This document shows, in pieces, positions 2,608 through 59,900 of a stretch of 64,000 bases of DNA (position 1 is its first letter; each line of letters begins with the position of its first letter). This DNA is from Coptis chinensis (lineage: Eukaryota; Streptophyta; Magnoliopsida; Ranunculales; Ranunculaceae), in assembly GCA_015680905.1 (NCBI GenBank), contig CM027383.1, positions 89,362,501 through 89,426,500 of the forward strand. The letters are read 5' to 3'. The notes under the pieces are model-generated. The model saw only the letters and a program-made list of their open reading frames with translations. It ran no database searches and had not been told where the DNA came from. Both the position numbers and the translations under genes were made by a program.

Positions 2608-2866
2608 TAGTGCATTGAGGAATACTTCTAGGTACATCCATTTTGTACAAGATTTGTCTTATTTTATTTAGAGGGGGTGTGGGGTGGGGTGGTTAGTGTA
2701 TTGAGGAATACTTCTAGGTACAACCATTTTGTAATGGGGTTGTCTTATTTTATGGGGTGGGTGGGGGGGTGGGGGTGGGGTGGGGTGGTTAGTGTATTGA
2801 GGAATACTTCTAGGCACAACCATTTTGTACATGGTTTGTCTTATTTTATTGGGGGTGGGTGGGTTA
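2608..2866. repeat. Three tandem copies of an 86-96-bp unit with G-rich spacer
   Basis: Copies start at 2608, 2694 and 2790. Each begins TAGTGTATTGAGGAATACTT, continues to TTTGTCTTATTTTAT and is joined to the next by a G-rich run (GGGGTGGGG type). The G-runs at 2670-2692 and 2755-2788 could form G-quadruplexes on the plus strand. No coding role is seen. Confidence 0.8.
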
Positions 2867-3496
2867 TGAGACACATCATAGAGTATTCCCTTTGCACTAT
2901 CATAGTATCTCCCTTCCTAATTGGTATGCTCAATAAAATCGATAACTTCAGGGAAACAACACATTTCGCTCTTACAAGGAACAATAAAATGGTGTAGTCT
3001 ATTCACTAAAATGCTAGAAAATCCAACAAAAAAAAAAGTAAACTTCCAACTAAACCAAAGAATTGTAAAGCCTGTGAATCCTTTTTGAGCACGATGCAAG
3101 CTAAATCGAGAATATTGACATTCGGTTTTTTATAAGAGAAAAATCCAATTTTCTTATAAGAGAAAAATCAAATTCTTATAAATAATCAAAACCAATAAAG
3201 TAATAGGAAAAGTACTCAAGTAGGATCCAAATTAACCAATTACTTATTTTACTGATAAGACCTAAAGTAAGATACAACGATTACAGAATTGAAACTTCAT
3301 CCACTCCCACTACAATTTTCTCTTATAAATTTGCATACGCTTCTAAAATCAAGTTTCATATAGATTTGGAAACGAGGTGAATGCAAGCAAAACCAATTAA
3401 TTTAAGCGTAAGATTATTGATGTTTACAAGTGATCTATTAGAAGGATAAGAAAAAGTATGACTGATTACCATGACCATTTTTTGTTCTTGTTCCTG
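2867..3496. other. Probable 3' flank of the WIYLD gene, no gene seen
   Basis: AT-rich sequence downstream, on the minus strand, of the stop codon at 3497. No further WIYLD-gene exon could be recognised. It probably holds the 3' untranslated region. Confidence 0.4.
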
Positions 3497-3842
3497 CTAT
3501 TCTAGAATTGCCTCAATAAGAATAATGTAAGGTCCCTGCTCAATAATTTCCCAGTGTCCCTGATAAAGCTACAAAAGGAAATCAAAGAAAAAGAAGAATC
3601 AATTAATCCTTGTAACACTGACACTTTCAAGTGAAAACATACCTCCAAAAGTTCATTCACCTTGCGCCGTATTAAAGGAATGTCATATCCCATAGGGCGT
3701 AGTGCATCTATGGCAGCATCCATCCGCGCTTGACCTATCTGCAATGATATTTTCCAAAACATATGGGGAGATAAAAAATCAAAACTAAGAACCTAAGAAG
3801 ATGTACAAAAAATTACAAAAAATTAAAATTAAAACTAAACAA

Positions 3843-3885
<43 letters not shown>

Positions 3886-3944
3886 GTAAATAAATAAAAT
3901 AAATGAAAAGTACAAACCTTTCTTGGGCTCCCTCTACGCGCCAT
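3497..3944 (-). CDS. Small WIYLD-domain protein (SUVR4 N-terminus-like)
   Basis: Spliced minus-strand gene. Exon 1 is 3918-3944 (MARRGSPRK), exon 2 is 3643-3738, exon 3 is 3497-3568. All junctions are GT-AG and in phase 0, giving about 64 residues. Exon 2 begins IGQARMDAAIDALRPMGYD and ends RRKVNELLE. Exon 3 has LYQGHWEIIEQG and ends IEAILE, then TAG. This pattern matches the plant WIYLD domain, known from the N-termini of SUVR1/2/4 histone methyltransferases and from short stand-alone proteins that begin M-A-x-R-G-x-P-R-K. No SET domain is present, so methylation activity is not implied. After the TAG the frame continues QEQEQKMVM to a possible GT donor, so the natural protein may once have been longer, as family members extend past this point. 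Two more copies of exon 1 lie upstream (4112-4137 and 4414-4440). 5' leader exons probably lie at 5213 and 5338. The gene could be functional or a young pseudogene. Confidence 0.7.
3843..3885. repeat. AAT microsatellite
   Basis: Uninterrupted AAT repeats inside the first intron of the WIYLD gene. Similar AAT/AAAT tracts sit at equivalent places beside the other two exon 1 copies (about 4061-4098 and 4344-4402), so the tract was part of the duplicated unit. Confidence 0.9.
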
Positions 3945-4690
3945 TGGCAGATAAGTTCAGACACAGTAAAACATTCCAAAAAAACACCACAATAAGAAGC
4001 AAAAAAGAAAGACACAAATGGAGCCCAACTAATCCAAAAAAGTGTGTGTGTGTGTGGGGGGAATAATAATAATAATAATAAAAATAAATAAAATAAATGA
4101 AAAGTACAAACCTTTCTTGGCTCCCTCTACGCGCCATTGGCAGATATAAGTTCAGACTTGTAAAAACATTCCAAGCAAACACCACACTGTAAGCAAAAGA
4201 AAGACACAAATAGAGCCCAACTAATCTAAACCCCTCAACCCTCTCTCTCTTTTTCTCCCCAACACTCAATTGATCATAAGCACTTTCAAGCTTAACAAAT
4301 AAGTATAAAACAGTCAAAAAGGGTGGGGGTGGGGGTGGTGGGAATAATAATAATAATAAAAATAAAAATAAATAATAAATAATAAATAAATAAAATAAAT
4401 GAAAAGTACAAACCTTTCTTGGGCTCCCTCTACGCGCCATTGGCAGATATAAGTTCAGACCTAAACGATCGAATACAAGTTCAGATCGGTAAAAACATTC
4501 CAAGCAAACACCACACTATAAGCAAAAGAAAGACACAAATGGAACCCAACTAATCTAAACCCCTCAACCCTCTCTCTCTTTTTCTCCCCGACACTCAACT
4601 GATCATAAGCACTTTCAAGCTTAACAAATAAGTGTAAAACAGTAAAAAAGAAGGGGGGGGGGGGGAGGGAGAATGAAAATCACGGCCCAT
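3911..4690 (-). repeat. Tandem triplication of WIYLD exon 1 region
   Basis: Three direct copies (about 3911-4035, 4101-4340, 4404-4690) each contain the GT donor, exon 1, the upstream motif TAAGTTCAGAC and a leader with AAGCAAAAGAAAGACACAAA. Exon 1 copies are 3918-3944 (27 bp), 4112-4137 (26 bp) and 4414-4440 (27 bp). The middle copy lacks one base and would read M-A-R-R-G-S-Q out of phase with exon 2. The outer two keep phase. The copy nearest exon 2 has the shortest leader. Units 2 and 3 also share a CTCTCTCTCTTTTTCTCCCC tract and G-rich run. Confidence 0.85.
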
Positions 4691-26851: not shown

Positions 26852-27484
26852 AACCAATCCTATAATCTTTCACAATAAAAGAGTGTCAGGACCAATGAAA
26901 AGATTTACTTTTAGTTCATTGAAACATGCATGATCCCAAACATGGCCCATATCATCCCAATTCTGAACAATCCCATTATTAAAAAGATCATGTTAATTTA
27001 GTAGTACTACCAAATGACGTTATGTTAATTTTGGAATAAATTCATTTATTTATGTATCCTAAATTCAACAACTTCACAGTCCATGGTCACTTCATCACAT
27101 TTTGATTAAACTAGCATTCAAATAACCAAATACATTTACTGAATAACTCCAGAAGAACAAAAACTATTGAACTACAAATAGGTTTCATGTTTTAACATGC
27201 TAACAGAATACCAATATCTAACCAGAAACACCATCACAAGGGACAGCCCAAAAAATACATAAAAAAACACACTTTCACCTAAAACTTGACCAATCAAACA
27301 CATAAAACCTCCAAAACAAGCAATTTCACCACTAATCAAAACCAAAAGCAAACATTTTGATCAAACTCCCTTACAAAAATGAAACTATCTAATTCATCAA
27401 AGTAATAAACACTAACCATATCAAAAAAATAATTATTATTACCCCGGCGCCATTGTCGCAGACGATTACATTTTTGTTGTCCAT
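26685..27484 (-). pseudogene. ARP2: Captured ARP2 fragment (exon 1 and two more exons)
   Basis: Exon 1 (27443-27484) starts at ATG and reads MDNKNVIVCDNGAG before GT at 27441-27442. A second exon (about 26909-26985) reads NGIVQNWDDMGHVWDHACFN then ELK. A third (26685-26756) reads [20 protein letters not shown] then REKM. Together they match the N-terminal third of actin-related protein 2, a subunit of the ARP2/3 complex that nucleates actin branches. The stretch between residues about 15 and 75 of ARP2, and everything after the REKM motif, was not found. The piece includes the parent's start codon and probably its leader (27485-27780), so promoter sequence may have been captured too. No functional actin fold can be made. 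Confidence 0.88.
26760..26849. repeat. AT microsatellite, about 90 bp
   Basis: Pure AT repeat lying directly upstream, on the minus strand, of the ARP2-derived exon at 26685-26756, so it occupies the place of the intron's pyrimidine tract and acceptor region (CAG at 26757-26759). Confidence 0.95.
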
Positions 27485-28087
27485 CTTCTTCTCCGAAATT
27501 TCTCTGATCTACAGCAAAATTTGAAGCGAAAATAAGAAACCTGAAAATTTAAGAAATTTGCACAACCCTTGACTAGAAATTGGGGTTCTAACAAAAACAA
27601 AAATTGATGATAGAGAGAGTGCGTGTGGGTTTCCAAAACTTGAGAGAGAGAGATGAAGCTCTTGCCAATTTTGAAAGAGATTTGAAGCTCTTACTATCAA
27701 ACACTCAGACCACTACCACCAAAGATTTACCGTCAGAGCCCTCCCACCAAATCCTCACTTTCTTCTTATACTAGGGTTAGTGAAAGAAAGAAATAATGGG
27801 CGGGGTAGTCAAATATTCACGAAATGTTGAGCGCGAAAAAGACAAGTGAATCACTTTCTCTCTGAAAATCATATGCGACGGTCACCGAACTGGAAAAGCA
27901 CGCAATGTCTAGTCTTTGATTTGGGACGAAAACTAATGTCGTTCAGTCAACCAAAGTAATCCTAAGTCAACCTAAAAAAGCAGTACGACGGGGTTCAAAC
28001 AATTTAAGACCGTAATTATTGTTCCTAATTAGAGACGGGATATATAGTCCCAAGAGTGTGTCCTAATTCTTAAATTCTGGTGTAGTG

Positions 28088-29269
28088 ATATTGCATTGCC
28101 AAAATGCTATCGATAAGAACTGAAAGCTCAAGAATCTCTAGGGATTCTTTCCATAGGCCATAGGCGGGTGCGAGTCACCGTCGACCGTGCCCCAAAAATT
28201 GAATATGTACACCGACCTTAGGTTGTCGTGGAAGTCATTGTTATGTGCACTATACAATAACACTATGAGCAGCACCCAACAAAGATCTGATTATGGATGT
28301 AAGCTCCCTTCAATACTTCTATGTCAACAATAGAAGCTACGGTGCATGTCAATCATATATAACTTCTGAAGCTGCAAACCTACAATCATTAAATTCTCAA
28401 TAGCAAGGTCCCTTCGGCCTTGGTTATGCCACTCCTAACTTATGATCGTGTCTCCAATACACCTCGACATTCATAGTTAGCACTTTATAATGAAGTGAAC
28501 GTAATTTCCGGCCTATATGTTCAAGTCCCCCTCTTCAATGTCCTATGGAAGGAGAGGTCATACATACCTATTGATATTTGATGTGGTTTGTAATGTAGTT
28601 TTCCTAATCTTAACTAGAGTCCTCATTATTTTACCTATTTGTTACTTCATAAAACTAGGTTTAAAACCCTAATTCCGGTCTTTATTAGCTTAAAACCCAT
28701 TGACTTTATTAATTACACCTAAATCCCACCCGATTTTTTGAAATGTGAAATAAAGGTTCCAACTTCGGTAAATTTCGAGTTTAAGTCTTTTCTTTGTGTT
28801 TCCTTTATTCAAAATGCCCATTTTACCCATTTCAAGTTTTTCCTCACAAACATATCTCTTCTCAAAATATATCTTCATCACCACACTCCAACATACACTA
28901 GCTGTCGACCTTCGCATCTCCCACAATCAAAGTAATCACTTTGCCTCTCCATCTTCTTTTCTCCCCACTCTTTTTTTTTCCTCTAATCGTTCTAAAAAAA
29001 TGAGTGTTTTTATTATTTATGATTTTGGGTTTCAAAATAACCTTTGAAATTTGGTATTGATTGACTTTTTGGATTTCATTACAAATGAAGCATTTCCCCT
29101 TTATGTAGATTAGTTTTATTGCATACTCCTGTGATTTCAAGCGGTTGCTATATATATTGATTGTTTAATTTAATATATGATTTTCTTTACTTTGAATTCT
29201 TGATATTGTTACTACATACTTTGTAAAGTTATACGTTGAATACATTGTGTAATATTCTAATTGTGTTTT
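28088..29269. other. No gene recognised
   Basis: AT-rich sequence between the CACTA element and the MULE transposase remnant. It may include the upstream part of the MULE, but no inverted repeat or target duplication was found. Confidence 0.4.
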
Positions 29270-30093
29270 CAAGGTCATTTAACTCATATTGTTTTTGGCA
29301 CTTGAAGAACAATGTTGGTTATGTTATACAGAAAGATAACAAATTGAGAAAATATGTTGTGAAGCTATTTTCTGATTGTGCTTATATAGCTTCTCATCAT
29401 GAATTTTTGCCTTGTGCTGAAAAGTTAAAGAAACATGGTGGTTTTCCTGTGCGAAGATTTTTGACAGATATTAGATTGGAAAATTGGGCAAATGCATACT
29501 TTCACAGTGCTAGATATGGTAAGATACATGTGCTCGACACTAACTGATCGAATGTTTCAATGAATGATATGGATCACTAAAGAGTGCTTCCTGCCTATTA
29601 TTCCTATGCTTTTTGGAATCATGGAAAAGATGATAGAAATGACTTGGAACAGATTGGAGGAGTCTATGAAATGGAATTCCGTTTTATGTCCAAAAATGGA
29701 GATAGTACTGGTTAGTAAGGTTGAAGCTATAAGGACTTTGAGGGTGGTTAGATCAAATGAAAATCAGTTTCTAGTTCATAGCGACGTCATTCATTCAGTT
29801 GATTTAATGAATAGATCATGTACTTGTAACTATTAGTGTGTCGATAATTGATCCCTTGCATACATGTTATCGCTTGTATTGGTAGTAAGGGTGATTCCTT
29901 TTATAGCTACATTGATGAAGGATATACAGTGATCGCATTCAGGCAATGTTACTCACATTCTATCAAGCCAGTTTCGAATGGTTCTATGCCAAGACATATG
30001 CTTGACTTTCCTACGATTTATCCGTGTAGTCCGAAGATTGGTCCTGGTAGACTCAAGAAGAAAAAAATTGAAAGCACCGGTGTGATTCGTTAG
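29270..30093 (+). pseudogene. MULE (MuDR-type) transposase C-terminal remnant
   Basis: Plus-strand pieces: YCFWHLKNNVG at about 29292, then FPVRRFLTDIRLENWANAYF and HSARYG (to 29520), a pairing typical of the end of the MULE catalytic domain before the SWIM zinc finger. The SWIM motif follows as SCTCNY (about 29815) and PCIHVIACIG (about 29852), then the usual tail YTVIAFRQCYSHSIKPV and a basic KIGPGRLKKKK end. Frames change and stops occur at 29545, 29575 and 29834, and the region before WHLKN is missing, so the gene is dead. It is a plain Mutator-like DNA transposon relic. Ends of the parent element were not identified. Confidence 0.8.
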
Positions 30094-30305
30094 TCTGTGA
30101 TCAGTTTTGATGTTCTTGGCAAACCATATTTTTTTTTGTTATCTTAATTGAGATTTTTAAGTATGGTCTTCTGACATTTATTAATGAGAAATTGATACTC
30201 ATTGTATTCTTTTTATTGAATGTTAGATACTCATTTGAGATTATTCGTTAGTCGTTTTTTTTTTTCATTTGTTATAATGGAATTTATATCCTGTGAAATT
30301 ATTTG

Positions 30306-30545
30306 TGTTGCAATTGTAATTAAGAGTGCAACATTCATGTTGCAGTCATAATTGATAGTGCAACATTCTAATTGGTATGGCAACATTCATGTTGCAGTCG
30401 TAATTGAGAGTGCAACATTCATGTTGTAGTCGTAATTGATAGTGTAACATTTTAATTGAGAATGCAACATTCTAATTGAGAGTGTAACATTCATGTTGCA
30501 GTTGTAATTGAAGATGCAACATCCATATTGCAGTGGGATGTTGTA
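30306..30545. repeat. Palindromic minisatellite, first array
   Basis: About eight units of roughly 28-32 bp built on GTGCAACATTCATGTTGCAG followed by TCGTAATTGA. Each unit contains the self-complementary GCAACAT..ATGTTGC. The units are degenerate. Confidence 0.8.
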
Positions 30546-30637
30546 CAAGAACCATGCGTGAGACTTACTTTTGATGTAATGCATGAGACTTAATGCTAGA
30601 ACTATGTGTGAGACTTAATGCTATATACACATATAAA

Positions 30638-30714
30638 CAAATCTTGGTGGATTTGAACCACCATCCTCTTGGGATTCTTCTCCCAAGCGCTCTACCTTTT
30701 TGAGCTAAAGATCC
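30638..30714 (-). tRNA. tRNA-like gene or pseudogene with oversized anticodon loop
   Basis: On the minus strand the 77-nt stretch has an acceptor stem GGATCTT paired with AAGATTT (two G-U pairs), U8, a D arm GCTC/GAGC with the loop AAAAAGGTA (A14, GG), a perfect T arm GGTGG-TTCAAAT-CCACC, and a 5-nt variable loop. The anticodon arm is abnormal: CTTGG/CCAAG enclose a 10-nt loop, or CTTGGGA/TCCCAAG enclose 6 nt, so no standard anticodon can be assigned. It lies between two palindromic minisatellite blocks. It could be a decayed tRNA, an organelle-derived copy, or a tRNA-derived SINE head. Confidence 0.45.
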
Positions 30715-30861
30715 ATTCTTTTTATGTTAACTTCATCACGATAATACTTATAGTACATTTGAATCAAAAGTAATAAGTGCACTTTCTATTGTGTATAACC
30801 ATTAAGTTCTTTAACATTCATATATGAGTACATGTAATCTCAATTATTTGATGTCAATGTA

Positions 30862-31190
30862 ACAGTGCAACATCCATGTTGCAGTAGAGGTGACAGTGCA
30901 ACATCCATGTTGCAGTGGTAATTGACAGTGTAACATTCATGTTGCAGTGGTTGTTGCAGTGGTAATTGACAGTGCAATATTCATGTTGCAGTATTAGTTG
31001 ACAATGGTTGTTGCAGTAGTAATTGACTATGCAACATCCATGTTGTAATGATAATTGACAGTGCAACATCCATGTTGTAATATGAGTTGACTGTGGTTGT
31101 TGGAATGGTAATTGATTGTGCTACATCCATGTTGCAATGGTAATTGACGTATAGTGTAACACCCATGTTGTAGTAGGAGTTGACAATTGA
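30862..31190. repeat. Palindromic minisatellite, second array
   Basis: About ten units of the same family as at 30306-30545, here with GTGCAACATCCATGTTGCAG then GGTAATTGACA. Some units are shortened to TGGTTGTTGCAG. Confidence 0.8.
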
Positions 31191-31878
31191 AAACAACATG
31201 TAAAATCAAACAACAAGCATCAACATTTAAACTTCATGTTCATTTAAACAAAAAGCAAGTTCATTAAACCAAAACACAAAATACAACTAAAATTAAATAT
31301 ATATATATGGAAATTTTAAATTTAGTTTCTCACTTTTGTAATAGTTGGTTGTTTTTTGTTTCGAGTAGATCTCGGTTTTTAATGTACAAAATCGGTGGAA
31401 TCGCCATTAATTTCAAATTTCAAATTTCCATGTTACACTTTTCATACTTTCAGTTTAATTTGGAGGAACTAGGGTTTGTTTTTTTGTTTTCAAACTATTT
31501 AGATTTTTGTTTGGGGAAGATGGGGTGAGGGACAAATTTGTAATATTACCAAAAAATTGACTGGGTGGGCTTTTAACATAATTACAAAAAGTCTATGTCT
31601 TTTATCCGAAATTAAATTAGAATGGTGGGCTTCAGGCCCAATCTCTGTTGTTACTTCTCCAATGAGTCAGTTAATCTTGGTGCCTGATCATCTTGTGTTC
31701 ATCAAAGAGCAAGCCATAATTACCAAATGTACTTCTTTGCAAGTGTCATACATCTTGCTTGGTTTGCTTGAAGGAGTCGTATGTCTTTGGAGCATCCTCT
31801 GAGGGCGAGATATGATAAATAGAAAAATTTGTGTTATGATGTGATGTAACAGTAGCGAAGATGTGTGAACAGTAGAAT
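31191..31878. other. No gene recognised
   Basis: AT-rich sequence. Open frames at 31307-31528 and 31557-31802 have low-complexity hydrophobic translations without known domains. Confidence 0.45.
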
Positions 31879-32470
31879 TAGTGGCAGAGCTAGGAATATT
31901 GGTGAGGGTTAGCCACTTTAACACAACTAACAAAAAATACACACTAACACATCCAATTTGTCCTTTTAAATCTTCGAAATTACAATTAACATTTCATTTA
32001 GCTTTAGAAAATTAGAAACTTAAAAATAGAAAATATTCTGTATATATGCTTTAGCTAGGAAACCACTTCAAAACTGTATAATTTACAAAAGCAAAGAATT
32101 GTCAGGACTGGAATAAGAAAAATAGCCGAGGCAATGGAAAAAAAGAAATTGTCACCACTCAATACGGCAAAAATATTGTAAAATGGTAGATTTTAGTGTA
32201 TTTCTTTTTGTCTTCACTTACGCATTTGCTTTAATTGTTTTCGTTCTATTCCAAAATTTCAATCAATATCTTAAAGTAGATTCAAAACTAATTTCATTAC
32301 AATAAACAATCAAAATTAGTGTAGAAACACATTCAACAAAATAAATTATCATGGATTTGATTAACCGGTATAATTCATTACAACCAATATTTAAAAATAT
32401 CAAGGAATAAAATGTTTAAATAACGTACCAATGAAAATATATTATGAAATATTGGGACGTGAGTGTTGTT

Positions 32471-32504
<34 letters not shown>

Positions 32505-32790
32505 AAAGAATTACAATAAATGTTTATAAAACTCTTACCAAAAGTATTGTTCTATGAATGAAAAATAGATATAAAGAACAATCCGTGAGAAGATACGAGA
32601 CTGATGAGGTTTTCTTTTTCGTTTTTGGTATGTTACGTACGATGTATGTGTAGGTGTATGTAGGTTAGGTAACAAATCAATATTCATATAAATTGTTTTA
32701 TAATTATTCTCAATATATACATATTAGTTTTTTTTTTCCAAATTTGAGGGTGAGCCAGGGTGTACCCTGACCCCCCTAGCTCCGCCACTG
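31879..32790. mobile_element. hAT-type MITE, 912 bp
   Basis: Ends TAGTGGCAGAGCTAGG and (reverse complement of right end) CAGTGGCGGAGCTAGG form inverted repeats. A perfect 8-bp duplication AGTAGAAT flanks it (31871-31878, 32791-32798), the hAT length. The interior is AT-rich, has a poly-T run at about 32467-32500 and no coding sequence. Confidence 0.85.
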
Positions 32791-32798
32791 AGTAGAAT

Positions 32799-34184
32799 GA
32801 ATAGGAAAAACAGTGTATTGGTACTCTCTAAATCATGAGATATAAAGGAGTAGTCGTTTTCGATCCACACTATATAGTTGTACGTTAGCTACTTGAATGC
32901 ATGTTAGATTGATAAACTACTTACTAATGAAAGTACTAAGTTATCAAAATAGTAGATTAAAGGTATGAAAATAGTAAATAGATGATATGAGAAGAGATTA
33001 GAGAGGAGTTAATCTACCATACGACTCGATTGGCTATTAGCTAGTTTAGTCATCGATTCGCCTTTCTTAATCCCTAGCAAACAACCTACATCTCTATAAT
33101 AATTATCTAACTAGCATGAGAGATTAACATCCCCACAAATCTCTTTGCTGAGGTTTCTAATCTCTAGCCCTTTGTTATGAGTTATATCTTTAGAAACTCA
33201 CAATAAAGGACTTGAAACTCTATTGCAAAAACAATAAATAACTAAAAACTAATCATCCTCACATGACTTCATAAATCCCCCTCTAATGGAGGTTTTAGCC
33301 TTGTGTCATCGGATTATTTATATTAAAATAGTAAAATAATGACATTAAAGTAAAGAGAATAATTGAATTGAAGAACTAAAGACTTTTTATTGATAGGTTC
33401 TAATGGAGGCCAAGTTACACTACAACTAATTACTTAACTAAACCTAACTAAAACTAAACTAAACTAATTATAGACTAAGGGGAGGAAGAGAGAATAAATT
33501 TAGCCTTAACCCTCTTTATATAGGAAAAGGTTAGAGTTACATTTTCGTGCATGGGCCAAAAAAGGGGACTTTGGGCTTCTAATGTGAGCCCAAAGTCCAT
33601 TAGGCTAAGTCTAAAGAGGCCATATCTGCTAAAAATTACTTCAGTGCCCTTTTTGTCCACTTTATAGCTCTGATTAGGACAAAGCCGGATCTATTGGAAA
33701 ACTTATTCAAACGAAGGGTTTTTTTTTACTAAGTTTTCTTAGAATAAATAAAATAAAGATATGAAAATAAGACTGTTTCCTAACTATAATCGATTCCCTC
33801 TTAAATTGTATTAATCTTATTATATCGTTAGATCTCCCAAAACTGTTTTCTCCCTGACCGCTTGATATAACAACATAAAAGACCAAGCTGCTTTATTATA
33901 TAGATATATATATACATTAAAAAATTAATTGCGTTAAAAAAATATAATTTCCAAATTTTAGAATATATCAATATTTCTGTCGGAATTTCACTGTCCTACG
34001 TATGAAAGGGTCCCACTGTAAATTTATTTGTGGTGTGAAAAAATGTAAAGTTCGAATTTTAGAATATATCGAGAATATCGCATGGGATTTAGGTTTAAAA
34101 CTTTTGAAATTTCAGATATGAGATGTGATATGAGATTAGATATGAGATATAATGGTTATTTTAAATTAAGATGATATATGAGAT
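32799..34184. other. No gene recognised
   Basis: AT-rich intergenic DNA. 34108-34190 is a degenerate run of GAGATATGAGAT-like words that served as target for the next element. Confidence 0.5.
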
Positions 34185-34191
34185 GTGAGAT

Positions 34192-34819
34192 TAGGGGGTG
34201 TCAACGGTCTGATTCTTAGTATTGTAAGAACCAATCAATAACCATTTAATTTTACGATTCTGGTTTTTAAAATTGTGGAACCATACCCATAACCATCGGT
34301 TGCTAGTGGGTATTTTTGGTTCCGGTTTTTAAGAGATTCACTATTTACACATATTTTTTTATTGGTCTTATTAAAAATGTGTACTAAAAACACAAAAATA
34401 CCACACGAACGAGTCGATTTTTAAATATTGATATAAGTAATTATGTCATTTAATAATAAGTTAAATAAAATAATATATTTAAATTTGTATGCTATATTTT
34501 TATATTATTTATAACATTAAATACAATGAAAACTACATATTACACTAATAAATAAAATTTATTAATATATAAATGAACGTTTTGAGTTTTTATATTATTT
34601 ATTTTGATATTTTTTATGTTAAAAATACGATAACGTTCGGTTCCGATCCGGTTCCAGTTCTGGTCTGGTTTTTTAGTTTAAAAAACCATTCGGTTTCAGT
34701 TCTAGTTCTATATGGTATGGTTTTTTTAGTACCCATTTTTAAACAATTTCTAAAAATAGGAACCGGAACCATAATTTTTTCTACGGTTCCAGTTAAACGG
34801 GTGCCCATCAACACCTTTA
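34192..34819. mobile_element. hAT-like MITE, about 628 bp
   Basis: Left end TAGGGGGTGTCAACGG and right end (reverse complement) TAAAGGTGTTGATGGG are imperfect inverted repeats of the plant hAT type. GTGAGAT occurs on both sides (34185-34191, 34820-34826), though the flank is itself rich in GAGAT words, so the duplication is less certain. Subterminal zones repeat GGTTCCGGTT/AACCGGAACC motifs in both orientations. Confidence 0.65.
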
Positions 34820-34826
34820 GTGAGAT

Positions 34827-37422
34827 GAAATATGAGATATGAAATATATTAGTTAATTCTAAATTACATTTGTACTCTTACTTTAATTTAAAAATTCAAA
34901 TCTAATGTGTACTTGATAGTGTAATATCAATAACTAGATGGGGGCCAAAATAGAAAACAAAATCGTGGAGTTGAAAAGTTATGTTGGTCGGACGATTTTC
35001 CCCTCCTATTACAATTTGTTGCTAAAATAACATTCCTAATAATAGATAGACTTTAAGAGTAAAACATGTAATTTCTATTGTAGATTGGCTTTCTCTCTTT
35101 ATACTAGTGTAAGATATTTATTTGTTTGATTTTTTTTCCTTAATTAGTCAATTTTTTGTATAGGCGTTTAACTGTTTAAGCACTGCTTTATAAAACCTCA
35201 AGGTCCAGTCCCTAGTCCCCAGTCCCCACAAACACCACATTATTGATCAATTTTTTTTTTAATGCAGAAAACAGATAAATATATATCCTTCGTCATTTTT
35301 TTTCCCGCTAATCTACAATTATCTTTCAAAATATCATTTTGGTTTGCTGGGACCCTTGGAGTCTTGGACTCATAAAATTGATATATTTTAGACTCTGGAA
35401 GTTTGGACTTTGGAGAGCATATATGATACGTACAATATATTGGCATATTATCGGGAAAAAAAATACACAATATACTAGCCATTATTGGCCATTTCTAAAC
35501 TTGAGTTAGGGACTTGGGGCATCTCCGATCGCAGGGGTATAAATAGTATAAAGTGTAAATTTTACCCCCCCTCAAATCTTAAAAAACAAAAGTGTAAAGC
35601 GTAGGTAATTTATTTATTAGTGGAAACCAATGTCCACCGAAATTGATACCTAGACTTTTAGTTTGGGACTTCGGAGGTTGGGAGAAGTTCTTTTGCATTT
35701 ATGTATTTTTTTTTCTATTTATTATTGGCTGATAGTTCCTATATATATATTACGTGATATACGTACAAGTGTACAGCAACAAAAAAGTGCCCTATCGCTA
35801 ATTTGATCTCTAGCTGCATTCGTGCATCTAAAAGAAAGAGGTGATAGAGTTTAAAACTTCCGATTAATTGAAGGCTCCAATGATGGAGATGGTAGGGCTA
35901 GAGGCTCTTATCAACAACAAAAAGGACAGAAGAAAATGTTTCAACAGTCAAAGTAGTCAACACACATAAAAAATATCGCTTTTGGTGGGATTTTTCCTTT
36001 TCCTTTTCAGATTTTAGTTTACAAATTTTACGTATCCAAATACCCAAAAGAAAAATCAAACAAGTCATTTTCAAAGTTTCTTATAAGCGGACTTTTATAG
36101 CTTTGTCACAATCATTACATCACTTTTCAACACTCACTCCACAACACTCATTCTAATCTGTGGTTGAGAACGGATTATCAACAAATTAAAGATTATGTGC
36201 AGGATCTTGGTCTCTTGGTTTGATATTTTCCTATATATCGTCATTTTCTTTGAAGAAACCTTGACCAAACCAGAGAAAAAACGTATGGTGAAGCTTACTT
36301 TCATTATTGATGATGAATCTCAAACAAAATGTGATACCATCATAGTTCAAGATTTCGAAATTATCAGAATTCTAAATTTTTCAAAAACCAGAATTTCAAA
36401 GGGTATATTTCGAGCATATTTTGAAAATTTCGACCTTTAACATATAATTCTGATTTTTTTAAAGAGAAAATCTACTGTGCACAGAAGAGAGAGAGTGTTG
36501 TGGTCAATTGAGGCCACTCATCACAGCAAAAAGTGCGTGTGTATTGCATCACGAAGTATTGTACAAAGGCCCGATTCATCCGTACCGGTGCAGTAGGCGT
36601 ACTCTATAACTGATATTTTTTTAAAATTGAAATGTTTAGTGAAATTTTGAGATTCCGTTTGAAATCACGAACGATAGATACCATATATTTACCATGCAAT
36701 CTGTTCGTTCAACACGAATTCATGGATAATCATGAAAAACACTAAAGATTGATTGTTATGTATACAATACTTCCATTTTCTAAATTAGGTAAGAAGATAT
36801 CAAATCTTCATATCCAGAATTACTCTGACAAAGCAAAACTAATCACATGGACTTATAGTTTTAAGAAAAATTGTTCTTCCTTTCTTCCTTCTAAAATTTA
36901 AATACATTGATAGTTGTTGCTATATGTTAACATATATGTTCTAGGATATGTTACATTGTGTGATTGTGAATTCGGTTAAAAATCCAACTTGGCAGAGTTG
37001 CAGACTCTTATGGACGAAATCAATCAAAAGTTTCCTGGTAATAATCTTTGCCCTTTCGACCTTTTATTTGTCCAAGTCATTCTAGCCTCTCAAACACCTT
37101 CAAGTCTTCAACATTCAAACATTGGCAATGTGCAATGTGGTTTGAGGACCACGGGTGCAATGTGGTTTCATTTGAGACTCTGAGACCGACCAAATAAAAG
37201 GAGAGAGATTTTTTTTTTTTTTATTTTTATTTTTATTTTTTTTAAATTAAATTTTTGTTACTTTAAATTACTCTTTTGACAAAGGAATGCTAACAAAAAT
37301 ATATTTATTTGGAGCAGTCTCATACTCTCATCCCCACATTGAACACTTCAGTTTGTTATTTATTTATTTTTGATTGGTAAGTCTATTTTTAAATGAGATT
37401 AGTAACTCTTTGATGCTGGCGG
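34827..37422. other. No gene recognised
   Basis: Intergenic. Small open frames at 36195-36440 and 36989-37183 begin with plausible starts but show no family match or splice-consistent continuation that I can defend. Confidence 0.45.
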
Positions 37423-51303: not shown

Positions 51304-53147
51304 AGTGGTATCGGAGCCTTGGTTAGATTAGCCTAGGGTGTTATCCAAATCTTGGTTGGAAGGTGTTTGACAAAATTCCTGAGAGAAAATTTGAGTTTAA
51401 ATAACTTGTAGAAATGGACAAATCCGTGAACACTTGCATGACGAATTTGAATAGGAAGAACTACACCATCTGGAAAGCCAAGATGGAAGACTTGCTATAC
51501 TGCAAGGACTTAGCACTACCCATTGAGAATGGGGAATAAAACCGAAAAAAAGATGAGGATTTTGAGTGGAAAAAGCTTGACAGAAAAGCAATTAGATACA
51601 TTCGACAGTGGATTGACGACAATGTCTTTCACCATGTGTCTCAAGAGACTACAGCCTTCAGTTTGTGGAAGAAACTCGAAGACCTTTATGAGAGGAAGTC
51701 GGGTGGAAACAAAGTCTTTGGTCGTTAAAGTTTTTGAACCGCGGCGTACTAAGAAGGTTCTTCAATGTCTGGGCATCTTAACGAATTACAGAATACCATC
51801 AATTAGATGCATTTGATAAAGATTGATTTGGGAGACGAAGTTGAGACTTTGTTTCTATTAGGCTCTCTACTCGAAAGTTGGGAGACATTAGCAGTCTCTC
51901 TACATGGAGCAGCCAAGGATGGAATAGTTACCATGGAGATGGCTACCACGTCTTTGTTGAATGAGGAGACTAGAAGGAGTTCAAAAGGCAGCTCCTCTCA
52001 CTCAGAGATCCTTTTCACAGAGAAACGGGGAGAGGTAAAAGTAGAAAACCATCTCGTTCTAGAGGTGATGACAGAAGTAAATCTAGGGGTGAATCTAGAA
52101 CTCCTAAGGCAGAGAGAAAATGTTACTATTATGCCACCAATGGTCACTTCAGATATGAGTGCAGAACACTGAAGAGGGATGAAAAGAATAACTGTGTACA
52201 TGAAGACATGGTGCAGAGGAACGAACACACAAGCGAGATATACCGCGACTAAGTCGATGACCCAGTGAGAATTGTGTTAGATTGTGGTGTGTCTTTGCCT
52301 TAGTACCTCATGTCGATATCTGAGTGGGTGATAGATCTGAGGAGCATCCTATCCGTCACACCGCCTGAGGGATTCTTCACTACCTACGGTATGTGGTGAA
52401 TATGGTGAAGTGAGGATGGAGTAACGATGGCATCTCGAAGATTATAGGCATCGGAGATGTTCATGTAGAAACCAATGTCGGCTACACCTTGACACTCGAG
52501 GATGTAAGACATGTCCCCGACATCTGGTTAAGCTTTAATTTGGCCGGAAATTAGATGGCGATGGCTTTGTAAACTTCGTTTGGTAATCTGATATGGAAAC
52601 CGAAAGCGAGAGGTTTCATTGTAGCGACCAGGAGGAAGAAAAATTGCTCTCTTTACAAAACACAGGCTAGTTTGTGCAAATCAGAAGTGAATGCGGCAGA
52701 AGAAGAAGCTTCCTCCGAACTGTGGCACAAGAGACTCTGTCATATGGAAATAAAAGGGATGGAAGTTCTTGCTAAGCAAAAGGCCTTGCCAGACATCAAA
52801 GGTACACATTTAAATACATGTACTCATTGTTTAGTAGGAAAGCAACACAGGGTGTCTTTCCAAAGATTCCCGTCTCACAGAAAGGACAATGTCCTTGAAC
52901 TAGTGCCACTACACCATAATAGGATATTTGCAACACGCACCTTTTTTGATTTGCAACGCTTATTTAGCCTTAGTAAGTTTCCAACGTTAAATAAGCGTTG
53001 ATAATGTTGTAAAGCGTTGCTTTATTTGGGTGAATTTCCGAAATTAATTGCTAACGCTTAAAAAGCGTTGGAGAAGTGTTACAAACTTAAAAATTTCGTG
53101 AAAAATTTCGAGAACAGAGGGAAACCAAAAATATCGAAATATAAAAC

Positions 53148-53151
<4 letters not shown>

Positions 53152-53181
<30 letters not shown>
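53152..53181 (+). repeat. CT microsatellite
   Basis: About 15 CT repeats, followed by a leader-like segment up to the splice donor near 53456. It resembles a plant 5' leader, perhaps captured with one of the gene fragments. Confidence 0.9.
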
Positions 53182-53183
<2 letters not shown>

Positions 53184-53909
53184 CCGCATTATCTCAAGAT
53201 CCCTAATCAAAGAAAACAAGAAATGGATTGTTGACATGCATCCTCGACCCAGAAATCATAATATTCTTTAGACCACATACTTGACATCCAACTCATTTCC
53301 TCCATATGGTATCGCGGTGTTGTTGTACAATAGATCCAAAAACAAAAAAAAACCTTCTAGATCCACAAAATTCGTCCTTAGTTGGTTTTTCGTCTCAACA
53401 CATCCAAACAAACAAACCCCAAAGAAGCAAAACAGAAATTAACAACAGCTACAGGTAATTGTTTATTCTTTTGTTCTTCTTTGTTTCATTTGTGAATTGG
53501 CATGATATCGTTTTTCAAAAACCCAAATTGTTTTTGTGCGTTTTTTTATTAAATTGGGTTCGAAAATTGGCGAAAATCAATATTCTTTGAACTAATGTTC
53601 TGATTTTGTTATCTAATCACAATCAATTCCGGAATCTCATATAGTGATTATATTTGTTGAATACTACTTTCAACTCTTATTATGTTTAGTAACTATAATT
53701 TTTATGCAAATACTCTAGTGTTTGTCTTTTGAGCTGGTGATTAAACTTGATAGCTTTCCTATTTAATAAGCAGTTCAGTTTCCAAAACACTTGTTTAGGT
53801 TTGGGCTACTGGGACACTTGCCTTGGAAATATCATTACCTTTCACCGGGGGTTACTGTAAATCTGATTTTGTGCACACTCTTTAACATTGCTGAAAATTG
53901 GAAATGTAG

Positions 53910-54002
53910 GGTGGTGGTAGATCTTCTGCGAGGGAAACCATTGGTAGAGTTGCAGCTGGTGCTGTTGCAAAGATTATTCTTAGAGCATATGCTGGAACAG
54001 AG
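53910..54002 (+). pseudogene. Captured chorismate synthase exon
   Basis: A single 93-bp exon bounded by TGTAG (acceptor, AG 53908-53909) and GT at 54003-54004. It reads [20 protein letters not shown] then [11 protein letters not shown]. This is the chorismate synthase signature region with the RSSARET motif that binds reduced FMN and EPSP in the last step of the plastid shikimate pathway. The rest of the enzyme (about 380 residues) is absent, so no activity is possible. The exon is open and has kept both splice sites. Confidence 0.88.
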
Positions 54003-54146
54003 GTAGGTTTCTTATGCTTCTTTCATAATCATGTAAAGTACAGTGTTTGACAGAGTCAACAAAAATATGGATCCTTTGAACTTTCGCAACCTCAAACTAT
54101 CTGAAGTGGTATCTCCTAATGGACGAAACAGTTATGAAAGGATAGA

Positions 54147-55574
54147 CGGGGTAGGAGAGTTCCACCCTCTGTTACATCTACTATGCATGGGAAAGGGAAG
54201 AATGGATGGCAGCATGAGGTTGCGACAATTGATCATAGTTCTTCTCAGGGAGATGATGACAACAGAGACTGGATTCCCCTTTCAACGATGAATGATGAAG
54301 TGGAAGATAGAACTACAGGGCCTGCACTAGTGGTTCCATCACATGTTAGGAGTCATCAGATGCGAAACTATGTTCCAGCAGAAGTTAGTAGGTCAGAATC
54401 TGTGATACCTGTTACCTCTATGCTTGCGGGTTCTAGTTCGCGCCAAAGAGGGATGGATAATTCTGGGATGGTTCCTTTTGCATTTTACCTTCCTGGGTCA
54501 CCAGTTCCCTTTCTGACGATGCTTCCGGTTTTTAATCTCCCTACCGAGAATGGAAATTCTGACGGTTCTACAAATAATTTTGATAGGGAGGAGACAATGG
54601 ACAAAAGCCATAAAAACCAGTCAGATCAGAACTTTGATTCAGCAGAGAGTCTTGACCAGTCGGAGATCTTCAGTAGTTCTTGTTCTACAAAACATTCTGC
54701 TTCTGTGGACCCATCTGAGGAACCATGTGACCACAACACTGACATTCTTCATAGTAACTTTGCTAGTCATTGGCAAAATTTGCAATATGGAAGATTCTGC
54801 CAAAATCCACGCTATCATGGTCCTCCAATTTATCCTTCTCCTGTTATGGTACCCTTTACGTATTTACAGGGCCATATTCCATGGGAGGGTCCTGGAAGAC
54901 CTGTTTCACCCAATGGCAATATCGTGAGTCACCTCATGAGTTATGACCCTCATCTCGTTTCTGTTGCACCATTTCAGCCTGGTTCCAATAGGCCAACCAG
55001 TGTATATCAGCGTTATGGTGATGAACTACCTAGGTATCGAAGCGGAACTGGGACTTACCTTCCAAATACTGTAAGATGAGAATATTTCTTGCAACCTTTC
55101 GTTGATCCAGTATGTACCTAATTGTAGTATCTTAAATATTTGGGCTATGTATCAGTTTAAGAAGTCTCATCATCTTTTGAATATGGCTGCAGTTTAGCAT
55201 CTTAGTTCAGTTCAATTGGACAGGCATAAAATACTTGTGTGTGTGTGACAGAGAGGAGGAGGGGGGGAGTCTAAATGTGTTCCTTTACCGGTGTTAAATA
55301 CGTCATTGCATGAATCGTTGGTTTAGAAAGAAGATGATTTTAAGCCATCTTTTCGTTCTCCGCCAAGTGCATTATATAATTTTTTGAGTCTCTATATTGT
55401 CTCCTTACGTAACCCAATAGAGAGATCTGATTTTGTTTGAACTTTTCGTAAGGTTTCTTTGAAAGACCGCCATTCTTCAAATAGCGAAAAACCAGGGTAG
55501 AAATTACAACCATGATCATAATGACCGTCATAGTGACAGAGAAGGAAACTGGAACAACAATATGAGATCCCGAG
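54147..55574 (+). pseudogene. Captured PAP/OAS1-type nucleotidyltransferase 3' exons
   Basis: A long exon ending at 55070 (GT at 55071) reads GRRVPPSVTSTMHGKGKNGW, then SGMVPFAFYLPGSPVPFLTM, FASHWQNLQYGRFCQNPRYH and ends RYRSGTGTYLPNT. After an intron, 55496-55574 reads GRNYNHDHNDRHSDREGNW. This matches, from memory, the C-terminal half of plant proteins annotated as PAP/OAS1 substrate-binding-domain nucleotidyltransferases (Arabidopsis AT3G51620 type). The catalytic N-terminal domain is missing. Over 300 codons stay open. Just upstream of 54147 the same frame has a stop, so the fragment's left edge lies near there. Confidence 0.75.
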
Positions 55575-56175
55575 TAGACATTATGTTTAATGCGTTAATG
55601 CGTTAATTAGTTTCGCCATAAATTAATCGGGGTTAATTGTTTTATAGATTTCTTATACGATTGTTGGATGCCTTGCACATTAGAATGTTTTATCGACATG
55701 ACCTCTTCCAATGTTTTATATATATATGTTGGAGTTCCTAGTGTACACTTATGGAGATGTTAGGTTCTTGTTGCTTGTGCTTTGATATTGTCGAGTGCGA
55801 GTAAATCAATCGTTTTAAATAGTTTAATTGGTCATCCCGTTTTTGTAAGTAGCCCACACCAACTCTATTCTTTTCGTTCAACATCATAACTCATACCTCT
55901 AGCCACTTTGTTCTCTTCTCATTTGGCGGTTTTGAAATGTGTCCATTCTTGACCAACGCGGAGAAAATGGTGTAACTCGAGCTCCCATCGGCATTGATTT
56001 GCAAAGAGATGGTTCTCTCAAACAAGCAAATAGTGTTGCAAATTGATAGTAAAAGCCCGACAAAGTTTCGCAAGTGAGTCTTCTTAACAAATCGAGGTAG
56101 ATCTATTTTCTTTCATATTTATGATATTACGTCGTTCTTTTATGCAACTCGGCTTTGCGATATGTTTCTTATTGA

Positions 56176-56990
56176 GGAATGGATAAATTGATTCATGATG
56201 ACAAGGGAAATGCTACTATTTCTAATGATGGTGCTACTATTATGAAACTTCTTGATGTTGTTCATCCTGGCCGCTAAGATTCTTGTTGATATTGCCAAGT
56301 CTCAAGAATCGAGGTATACAATAGAAAACAAATTTACTAATTTTAGTGATTGGTGACTAAAAGAGTGAAATTTTTATGCTAAAGTTTATATTTATCTTAG
56401 AGTGGGTTATGATGGTTGCATTACTACAACATTTAACAGCTTATACTTTAGAGAAGATAATGACCATTAACAAGGACATTGTCTCAGAAAAAGTTGAGAG
56501 GGTATCATTAATAATTGTATTGGTTAGGTTTTAGGGATAAATTTGGAATTCACTTGTAATTTTAATGACCGGATTTATTGTCTACAGGTGGGTGATGGAA
56601 CCACTAGAGTAGTTCTTTTATGGTTGAGGATGGTGTCCACTCAAAGTCTTATAATGTAGTTTTCGAAATGGCCCAATTTGGTAAGGAATTTGGATCTTTT
56701 GGTTTGATTGGATGGATATGTTCATGAGAAATTGTTCTAGAAGCCATGAGTTTGCTACTTGTATTTCAAGCAATTAGCAAAATTAAGGAATTTGTTGCGA
56801 GTATAGAGGAGAAAAATATGGAAGAAAAGAAGAGTTTGTTGGCAAAGTGTGCTGCTACTACACTCTCTTCAAAGCTTTTTTTTTTTTTTTTTTGGAAAGA
56901 CCTCACTCTCTTCAAATCTGATTGATGGTGAAAAAGAATTTTTAACATCTATGGTTGTGGACTCAGTTATTTCAATTGGCAACTATGATA
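56176..56990 (+). pseudogene. CCT7: Captured CCT7 (chaperonin eta) fragment
   Basis: Plus-strand pieces: [20 protein letters not shown] then [11 protein letters not shown] and KILVDIAKSQ (56176-56310), VGDGTTRVV and EDGVHSQSLI (56588-56660), and SIEEKNMEEKKSLLAKCAAT then TLSSK..LIDGEKEF..SMVVDSV (56790-56985). These are consecutive parts of T-complex protein 1 subunit eta, including the ATP-binding GDGTT motif. Frameshifts occur in the HPAAK and GDGTT-EDG parts, and a poly-T run splits the last piece (about 56877-56893), so the copy is dead. CCT folds actin and tubulin in the cytosol; the parent gene must be elsewhere. Confidence 0.88.
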
Positions 56991-59900
56991 TATTGTTTAT
57001 TGTATTATTGTATTCATTGTTTATTGTAGGTTTAGCTGGTCTCGCTACAAAATATGAGAAATTATTATTTTTTTATTAGCAACCCATCAGCAACGGTTTA
57101 TAACCGTTACAAACGAATTTTAAATTATTATTTTTTAAATTAACTAACAACTTTGCAACGGTTACAAACCATTGGTAAAATTTTTAACAAATTACCAACG
57201 CTTAAAAAGCATTTGTGAAATAAAAAACCGTTGCAAAGGTTTTAAATATGTAATGTAAATAATTATAATAAGCGTTGAAAGTTCTCGTTTGTAACGCTTT
57301 TAATAAGCGTTGAAATTTCTTTTGGTAACGCTTTTAAGCAAAAAGGCCTTGTAATATTTCCAACACTTTACCCATGCCATATTTGCAATGCTTAAAAAGC
57401 GTTGCGAAAATTATTAGCAACGCTTTTTTGCCGTTGCAAATAGCCTCTTATGGTGTAGTGTGCACACAGACTTATGTGGTCCTATAAAAGTGAAGTCCTA
57501 TGGGGGAACTTCATACTTCGTGACCTTCATTGATGATGCGTCAAGAAAGATATGGGCCTATAGTCTGAAGACCAAGGATGAAGTATTTGGCGTGTTTGAG
57601 AAATTCCACAGTATGGTGGAAAGAGAGACTGGGAAGTTGTTGAAGTGTGTTCGCTCAGATAATGGGGGTGAGTACATTGGGCCGTTTGAAGAGTATTGCC
57701 AGAGTCATGGGATTCGTCATGAGAAGACCGTTCCGAAGACACCGCAACAGAATGGAATAGTAGAGAGAATGAACCGTACCATTGTAGAGAGGATGAGATG
57801 CATGTTGTCTCACTCAAAGCCACCTAGAACCTACTGGGTAGAAGCAATGCGTACAGCCGTGCATGTTATCAACCTATCGCCGTCAAAGCCTCTAAATAGT
57901 GACTATCTAGAGAGAGTATGGTCAGGCAAAGATGTTGATTATGGATACTTGAGGGTATTTGGGTGCAGAGCATTTGTGCATATTCCGAAGGATGAGAGAT
58001 CCAAGCTTGATGACAAAGCCAAGCGAAGGCATTTTTCCGGTTATGGAGATGAAAAGTTTGGTTACAAACTTTATGATCCGATTAACAAGAAGGTAATCCG
58101 AAGTCGAGATGTTGTGTTCCTGGAAGACCAAACCATAGCAGACTTTGAGGAGGGTGAAAAGCTACAGGTGTTCACCAATGATCTTGTTGATTCAGAACCA
58201 AAAGTTCCTACTGTGGAACGTGCAAAAGGCATTGAGAATGCAGAGAACCATGAGCCTGAAGCTCATGATGAGAATCCTATTGCTCATGATGGAATAGAAC
58301 CTATTGGTATAGAAGATGCAGATGAGATGCATGAACCACCACCAGAGCAAGCAGAAGTGCATCCTCCTGAGGCACCAGCAGATGGGGCAAGGAGGTCAAA
58401 CAGAGAGATACTAGCTTCAACTAGGTATCCACCACATACGTACGTGCTATTATCGGATGGTGGAGAACCTATGTACTATCAAGATGCACTTGAAGGTACA
58501 GACAAATAAAAATGGTTGAAAGCCATGCATGACGGGATAGATTCTTTGCATAAGAATCACACTTATGAGTTAGTTGAGAAACCGCAAGGATGAAAAATTC
58601 TCAAGAATAAGTGGATATACAAAATCAAGCATGAGGAGAACAATCCTCACCCAAGGCACAAAGCTCGCCTTGTTGTGAAGGGATTCGGTCAAAGAAAAGG
58701 GATTGCCTTTGATGAGATTTTCTCTCCTGTAGTAAAAATGACTTTTATCCGGGTGGTATTGGGTATGACCACAAGTATGAACCTAGAGGTTGAGCAGCTA
58801 GATGTTAAGACATCTTTTCTTCATGGAGACCTTGAAGAAGATGTCTACATGGACCAGCCAGAAAGGTTTGAGGTCAAAGGCAAGGAGCACCTAGTATGCA
58901 AGCTGATAAAAAGCTTGTATGGGTTGAAGCAAGCACTGAGGAAGTGGTACATAAAATTTGATTCCTTTATGGCCAAGCAAAGATACAAAAAGTTTGCTTC
59001 CAATCATTGTGTGTTTGTTCAGAGATTTTCAGATGGGGATTTCATAGTGCTGTATGTGGATGATATGTTGATAGTTGGCCCAAACATCAACAAGATATCC
59101 AAGCTGAAGAAAGACTTGAGTAAGTCCTTTGAGATGAAGGATTTGGGTCAAGCACAACATATACTTGGGATGTGGATCACTTGTGATAGAAAGAGTGGGA
59201 AATTGTGGCTTTCTCAAGAAAGCTACATTGAGAAGGTGTTGAAGAGATTCAACATGGATCAAGCGAAGCCAGTCAGTTGTCCGCTTGGTGGCCAGTTCCG
59301 CATGACCAAAGAGATGTGTCCAAAGGGTGAGCATGAGCAGAGTCAGATGGAAAAGATTCCTTATGCATCCATAGTGGGCAGCTTGATGTACGCAATGCTG
59401 TGTACAAGACCGGATATAGCTTTCGCCGTGGGAATTGTAAGCCAATTTTGTCAAATCCGGGGAAAGAGCATTGGGAAGGTGTTAAGTGGATATTGAGATA
59501 TCTCAAAGGTACTTCCAAATCGTGTTTGTGCTTTGAGTGGAAGTAAGCCCTTACTTGAAGGCTACACTGATGTAGACAAGGCAGGTGATGTTGACTCGAT
59601 GAAGTCCACCTCCGGTTATCTAGTTACTTTTGCAGGGGGAGCAGTTTCTTGGCAATCAAAGTTGCAAAAGTGTGTTGCCCTCTCCACTACAGAAGCCGAA
59701 GTATATTGCAGCTACTGAGTGTTGCAAAGAGTTGCTATGGATGAAGAGGTTCTTCGACGAACTAGGGCTAAAGCAGAAACAATTTGTAGTTCTATGTGAC
59801 AGTCAGAGCGCCATCCATTTGAGCAAGAATCCGAGTTTTCATTCTAGATCCAAACACATACACGTGTGTTATCATTGGATTAGAGAAGTACTCAAAGACA

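Follow-up and report, generated by a model that had tools for sequence, protein, structure and literature searches.

A non-autonomous CACTA element of Coptis chinensis that joins pieces of three, very probably four, plant genes and was most likely built stepwise

How do pieces of several ordinary plant genes come to lie side by side within one small mobile element? The question is raised by a 64,000-nucleotide stretch of the Coptis chinensis genome (GenBank assembly GCA_015680905.1, contig CM027383.1, positions 89,362,501 to 89,426,500 of the forward strand; hereafter the window), in which a complete CACTA element of 4,554 bp occupies positions 52907-57460. The element is a non-autonomous Pack-CACTA, with host coding DNA between CACTA-type terminal inverted repeats (TIRs) and no transposase seen inside its 4,554 bp. 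Comparison with the rest of the genome shows that it joins fragments of three ordinary plant genes and, very probably, of a fourth. We regard it as very likely that the element belongs to a large CACTA family and grew stepwise, its pieces most likely being gathered by the route described for Pack-TYPE transposons.

The element starts with CACTACACCATAATAGG and ends with the inverted counterpart of that sequence; both ends carry CACTACACCATAA, the start of a CACTA-type TIR, and subterminal repeats near TTTGCAACGCTT and AAGCGTTG are found at both ends. Direct and inverted subterminal repeats comprise repeat families D1-D4 and the inverted repeats I1, I3-I5 and I7. When the window was scanned for CACTA-type ends that match in 15 or more of 20 bases and are separated by 0.8-25 kb, six pairs emerged, of which 52907-57460 is the only one with a 3-bp target site duplication, TGC on either side. 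Joining the two 200-bp copia flanks over a single TGC gave a sequence that aligned across the joint over 383-400 bases, at 90-95%, in all five copia relatives fetched (40 matches were scored, the window itself among them). The insertion into copia is real, because the joined flanks align without interruption in all five. A first-pass annotation, made from the window's letters, had described a Pack-CACTA with a TGC duplication inside a copia region, and this description holds: the element has 28-bp ends, a flank with rve and SH3_retrovirus domains, and empty copia sites among the copia relatives.

The pieces from chorismate synthase, a nucleotidyltransferase and CCT7, together with one associated with ETF-ubiquinone oxidoreductase (ETF-QO), all lie on the + strand (Table 1, in which an element coordinate plus 52906 gives the window coordinate; compared loci are numbered L and contigs C). 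The first-pass annotation had rightly seen parts of three unrelated genes on one strand and had missed the probable fourth. Because direct Pfam searches with the chorismate synthase and nucleotidyltransferase pieces were both empty, their identities were taken from the host genes that they match; phmmer likewise found no solved structure matching the chorismate synthase exon. At window 53868-54008 the profile PF01264 reaches 32.1 bits against a cut-off of 27, over a stretch that includes stops in the intron edges. Four bases are common to all seven element copies of the chorismate synthase piece that we compared and are absent from the gene at C5:16.446 Mb, which argues that the donor was another paralogue, for which a second copy at C5:16.32 Mb is a candidate, or else that the piece passed from element to element.

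The nucleotidyltransferase piece contains a 313-residue open frame (window 54138-55079), for which the PADLOC library gave no match. In upstream exons of its donor, L017, PAP_assoc matches weakly (19.8 bits against a cut-off of 22.6) and OAS1_C more weakly still (12.1 bits against 19.9); both are below cut-off and in line with a nucleotidyltransferase of the PAP/OAS1 type. At L017:4791-4881 this chromosomal gene reads with a one-base frameshift, with GG there and in L009 and GGG in the window element, L010 and L011; the loss of the base may be genuine, or the assembly may be wrong in the host gene.

The first CCT7 exon matches T-complex protein 1 eta (E 3.5e-8, 28 residues). For the CCT7 donor we compared two of several CCT-like loci; one matched (L032) and the other gave poly-T matches only (L031). 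At C4:29982436-29982699 and C4:104215782-104216048, beside the CCT7-bearing arm, CCT7 residues 1-87 or 1-88 are open and without stops, so that a subgroup has a longer, better kept capture. Outside the four sister elements, the 225-bp ETF-QO-associated piece recurs at 15 other places, at 91-100% (best 40 of 58 candidates scored); L043, one of these places, stands beside ETF-QO exons. At four of the 15, PF05187 exons follow on the same strand some 740-940 bases further downstream, which makes it probable that element 729-953 is ETF-QO intron sequence. Given the 15 places, the ETF-QO gene region may itself be multi-copy or part of a repeated unit.

We searched the whole element against an assembly of 935.6 Mb in 116 contigs, nine of them of 85-125 Mb; the best 40 of 1,815 candidates were scored, giving 40 main matches and 29 short secondary ones. 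In none of the 40 main matches do the gene pieces lie side by side except in CACTA copies. The three pieces side by side in the same order outside a CACTA element, which the annotation had named as the finding that would count against it, were not found, and the genes that match them lie on different contigs (C5:16.446, C6:91.09 and C2:106.06 Mb). The CCT7-bearing 3' arm is present in 36 of the 40, the window and a sister on C2 included. The other four are L003 and L004, which both match the 5' 2,690 bases, a nucleotidyltransferase piece at C2:108.0 Mb, and L017, the donor; L004 is part of element L011, which also contributes one of the 36 arm matches.

The C2 sister, at 92%, is the only full-length copy besides the window among the main matches, and further sisters on C5 and C6 share the 5' part. 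Since the C2 copy is complete and has its own duplication (TGA/TGA), the element was mobile after its genes had been captured. Both outer ends could be read in 17 elements (the window, 14 of 20 fetched loci, L010 once extended, and one assembled from L041 and L027; one of the 20 loci is the donor). Fourteen have perfect 3-bp duplications, and in L010, L011 and L018 two of three bases match. The 5' end was not found in the fetched DNA of L016 and L025, and that of L026 is degenerate.

Exact 17-base ends occur genome-wide 595 times for the 5' type and 602 times for the 3' type, with none for the reversed control; the two types differ by one base, and in some copies either type stands at either end. 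We assessed pairing on contig C1, where both end lists are complete. Of the 62 exact 5'-type ends there, 29 have an exact 3'-type partner facing them at no more than 25 kb (median distance 6.8 kb, from 0.25 to 24.5 kb), against two wrong-orientation pairs and 0.41 expected at random places (maximum 4 in 1,000 trials). Varied host-gene cargo was found between the ends of family members. The first-pass annotation had also supposed unusually active gene-capturing families: for this family, the end census and the varied cargo support such activity, at least in the past.

A transposase-encoding relative carries the same family ends. This 11.2-kb element (L041+L027, C3:81612303-81623545) has its 5' end at C3:81612303, preceded by GTT, and its 3' end followed by GTT. 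It contains an 813-codon frame with Transposase_21 (PF02992, 1.1e-71), Transpos_assoc (PF13963) and DUF4218 (PF13960), and downstream of that frame DUF4216 and, weakly, Transposase_24. Next come a fragment of an amino-acid permease, on the opposite strand and under its cut-off (22.3 bits; 27 required), and the CCT7 arm. A potentially autonomous member therefore carries the CCT7 piece as well; the window element was probably mobilised in trans by a transposase of this family type.

Other members have the same ends and different interiors, which we listed from the + strand. These include a ubiquitin piece in L021 (PF00240, 3.9e-13) and a casein kinase II alpha piece in L024 (4.5e-22); in L019, L020 and L028 the chorismate synthase piece is longer (415, 411 and 673 aligned columns). 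In L016, where no 5' end was found, an FBD domain precedes the CCT7 arm. Pieces tried from L012, L013 and L020 gave no Pfam match except chorismate synthase in L020. A piece in L010, L011 and L018 that we took to be a SEC3-like start found no support, as Pfam was empty and its sole PDB match was to another protein (E 0.39).

Two loci record a fusion of neighbouring elements. In L010 on C5 and L018 on C2, a family element B stands directly behind a 3'-truncated element A, with the identical junction ATGATATGA/CACTACACC. The flanks of the two loci beyond the outer ends do not match each other, and L011, in which element 2691-3057 is replaced by about 2.27 kb of other sequence, continues past the junction position without B. 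The inner 5' terminal repeat at the fusion is still readable (L010 with L045, L018 with L046), and in L018 about 22 bases of the 5' end of B are left before an internal deletion. The recurrence of this fusion at two loci fits what the Pack-TYPE account predicts for neighbouring insertions that are mobilised as one (PMC8903248).

The order of capture and the joining of the pieces can be inferred from these forms. A CCT7 fragment would have been taken up early and become part of the family's 3' arm. Later, a 5' module and the ETF-QO, chorismate synthase and nucleotidyltransferase pieces would have been placed between the 5' end and this arm, giving the form of the window and L009. Replacement of element 2691-3057 may then have produced the L011 form, and the arrival of B behind the truncated A the L010/L018 fusion. 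By the Pack-TYPE route, neighbouring family insertions would lose their internal ends, mobilise as one unit and carry along the intervening DNA; the finished element would have transposed, once into the copia in the window. The CCT7 piece, which sits in the constant 3' arm, looks older, its identity to its gene being lower (75-84% in five elements, against 96-97% for the chorismate synthase and nucleotidyltransferase pieces). The captures were not one event of this element.

Several observations weigh against this reading. The short sequences shared at the three resolvable joints are weak evidence: one joint shares a single base, the second CGAG with L015 or GAG with L012, L013 and L014, and the third TGTA if the source was an L019-like element and 0 bases with the host gene compared. 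The outer duplications of L010, L011 and L018, imperfect as noted above, weaken the claim that A and B moved as a unit. Recognisable ETF-QO exons accompany the piece at only four of its 15 other places, and the host chorismate synthase gene compared was the one at C5:16.446 Mb, a second copy lying at C5:16.32 Mb. In L027, the transposase is open for 813 codons and the coding sequence then continues in other frames.

More tentatively, and with a little less than an even chance in our estimation, a transposase-encoding CACTA lineage may have adopted the CCT7 fragment as a fixed 3' arm, its non-autonomous offspring then serving as cargo vectors in which the ends and the arm stay constant and the middle can be swapped, its content coming from the genome or, when neighbouring elements fuse, from one another. 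The forms seen are transposase with the arm, the arm with one cargo, the arm with several, one in which another stretch has been replaced, and the tandem fusion found twice.

The pieces might instead have been assembled into a chimera at a host locus by other processes, such as duplication or retroposition, and taken up by CACTA in one step. All of them do lie on the same strand, as in a chimeric gene, but introns and splice-edge sequence are retained, so that no cDNA was used, and the identities to the genes differ, at 75% for CCT7 and 96-99.6% for the others. The pieces also have other neighbours elsewhere (the CCT7 arm in its 36 main matches, the ETF-QO piece at its 15 places, chorismate synthase in L019, L020 and L028). 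We therefore consider assembly before uptake highly improbable. Stepwise growth within the family is preferred over it, and equally over the possibility that selection maintains the 313-residue frame, or a transcript of the element's chimeric sequence, as a new gene, to which we give scarcely any weight. The frame is open in the window copy, and the chromosomal donor reads with its one-base frameshift; however, the fragment lacks a catalytic domain or Pfam match, its frame is broken in all three sisters tested (L009, L010 and L011; the breaks may partly be sequencing error), and the base missing from the donor is also missing in L009, where it may be real or an error. That the element is a chimera made by the assembly, in which an error-like signature at CAG/CTG is present, is a negligible prospect, as its joints recur in the full C2 copy and in partial C5 and C6 copies, each with its own flanks, and the five copia relatives are uninterrupted.

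The signature at CAG/CTG bears on how the copies are to be compared. Across the nucleotidyltransferase piece, L009, L010 and L011 differ from the donor at 121 of 195 CAG/CTG sites, compared with 110 of 387 similarly composed triplets (Fisher p 1e-14), and donor positions at most two bases from CAG/CTG differ in 244 of 1,281 cases, against 148 of 3,075 for the others. The window copy is changed at 6 of 47 CAG/CTG in its first 960 bases and at 7 of 18 in the rest. Of the 195 sites, 75 are unchanged, 48 have become CGG, CG, CGA or CGT, and 17 CAA or TAG (the 25 commonest classes, covering 175 sites). We rejected CHG deamination as the main cause of the copy differences, since its C-to-T products, CAA and TAG, number 17 against 48 for the CGG, CG, CGA and CGT group. 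In the CCT7 arm the excess is weaker than in the nucleotidyltransferase piece (CAG changed in 72 of 306, 0.24, against 325 of 2,193 like-composition triplets, p 2e-4), and CGC (0.28) and ACG (0.23) change as often as CAG, so that CAG/CTG alone would not account for the changes. Among the copia relatives, 30 of 70 against 99 of 319 is no significant excess (p 0.07). The pattern in the nucleotidyltransferase piece may come from errors in calling long-read bases where CHG is methylated, in which case methylation has left its shadow on the assembly. A literature search by titles and abstract openings found nothing on consensus errors at methylated CHG. If the basecalling explanation is true, identities between copies understate their similarity, and the broken sister frames are weak evidence on selection. 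Apparent copy ages in the assembly may likewise be inflated by CAG/CTG errors.

Table 1. Features of the Pack-CACTA element and its copia flanks, in window coordinates.
Feature	Position	Strand	Evidence
Interrupted copia, left side	52307..52906	+	39 other places among best 40 scored matches
Target site duplication, left copy, TGC	52904..52906	.	Flanking 3-mers and uninterrupted copia relatives
5' TIR	52907..52934	+	93% complementary to 57433-57460
Conserved 5' terminal region of the family, with subterminal repeats (element 1-301)	52907..53207	+	87-91% in 12 of 20 loci compared; middles otherwise differ
5' module (element 302-729)	53208..53635	+	Runs on from the same 5' end in elements L042 and L044
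Piece probably from an ETF-QO gene intron (element 729-953)	53635..53859	+	99.6% to L043
Chorismate synthase exon and intron edges (element 954-1113)	53860..54019	+	155 of 160 bases (97%) as in host gene L030, C5:16.446 Mb
Linker (element 1114-1223)	54020..54129	+	Of 21 loci compared, shared by L009, L010 and L011 alone
Nucleotidyltransferase (PAP/OAS1 type): end of a late exon, intron, start of next exon (element 1224-2668)	54130..55574	+	96% over 1,459 columns to donor L017, C6:91.09 Mb
3' arm of the CCT7-carrying subfamily (element 2652-4554)	55558..57460	+	Sharing is widest from window 56093 (element 3187) onwards
Degenerate CCT7 (TCP-1 eta) exons and introns (element 3268-4084)	56174..56990	+	75% to gene region L032, C2:106.06 Mb
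3' TIR	57433..57460	-	Pairs with 52907-52934
Target site duplication, right copy, TGC	57461..57463	.	Flanking 3-mers and uninterrupted copia relatives
Interrupted copia, right side: integrase core and SH3-like domain	57464..58509	+	rve and SH3_retrovirus domains in translation

CACTA elements with pieces of several genes are already known, and the Coptis element is a further example whose family preserves several capture steps. Tgm-Express1 of soybean is a 5.7-kb CACTA element inserted in the intron of a gene; it combines fragments of five unrelated host genes, with their exons and introns preserved, and these fragments are spliced into transcripts (PMC1947982). The Coptis element is of comparable size and likewise keeps unrelated host gene fragments as exons and introns; unlike Tgm-Express1, it lies in a copia element. 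The Pack-CACTA and other Pack-TYPE elements of Arabidopsis, maize and rice are described as non-autonomous, with conserved ends, varied interiors and in some cases more than one captured locus (PMC8903248, PMC13317346), and fused neighbouring insertions are grouped there as AB and BB (PMC8903248). The Coptis family resembles them in each of these respects, including multi-locus capture and fused neighbours; to judge from these descriptions, it differs in that a captured gene piece forms part of its constant arm and is carried by a transposase-encoding member as well. In Chenopodium CACTA elements, gene fragments lie within transposase-encoding elements, in the 5' region upstream of the transposase domains (PMC8978399). 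The L041+L027 element is like them in joining gene fragments with a transposase, whereas its CCT7 and permease pieces lie in the 3' arm rather than in the 5' position. A literature search combining CACTA with CCT7 found no paper.

The family offers a well-preserved series on the gathering and shuffling of exons by plant DNA transposons, with older and younger captures, identifiable host genes, a transposase-encoding relative that carries a gene piece and a fusion at two sites. With about 600 ends of each type in the genome, the proposed capture route could be tested from sequence alone. The series also illustrates how a gene fragment in a constant arm can pass for many independent captures.

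A second multi-gene capture within 25 kb, which the first-pass annotation had proposed, was not confirmed. The best other pair of ends, at 27410-36641, is the only other CACTA-like one with a 3-bp duplication; it matches in 12 of 14 end bases and has AAA on both sides. Among the best 40 of 6,092 candidates scored, the inner part of 27410-36641, at 28648-31652, has 18 further nearly complete copies (83-95%), whose ends are not of CACTA type. A single further copy was seen of the first 678 bases of 27410-36641, at 96%, and a single one of each of two short stretches, next to one of those 18 places. The stretch 27410-36641 could still be a diverged or rare CACTA element. The 3-kb unit at 28648-31652 does not start with CACTA; the 10-base TTGTTACTTC stands beside both of its ends, and it may be another DNA transposon.

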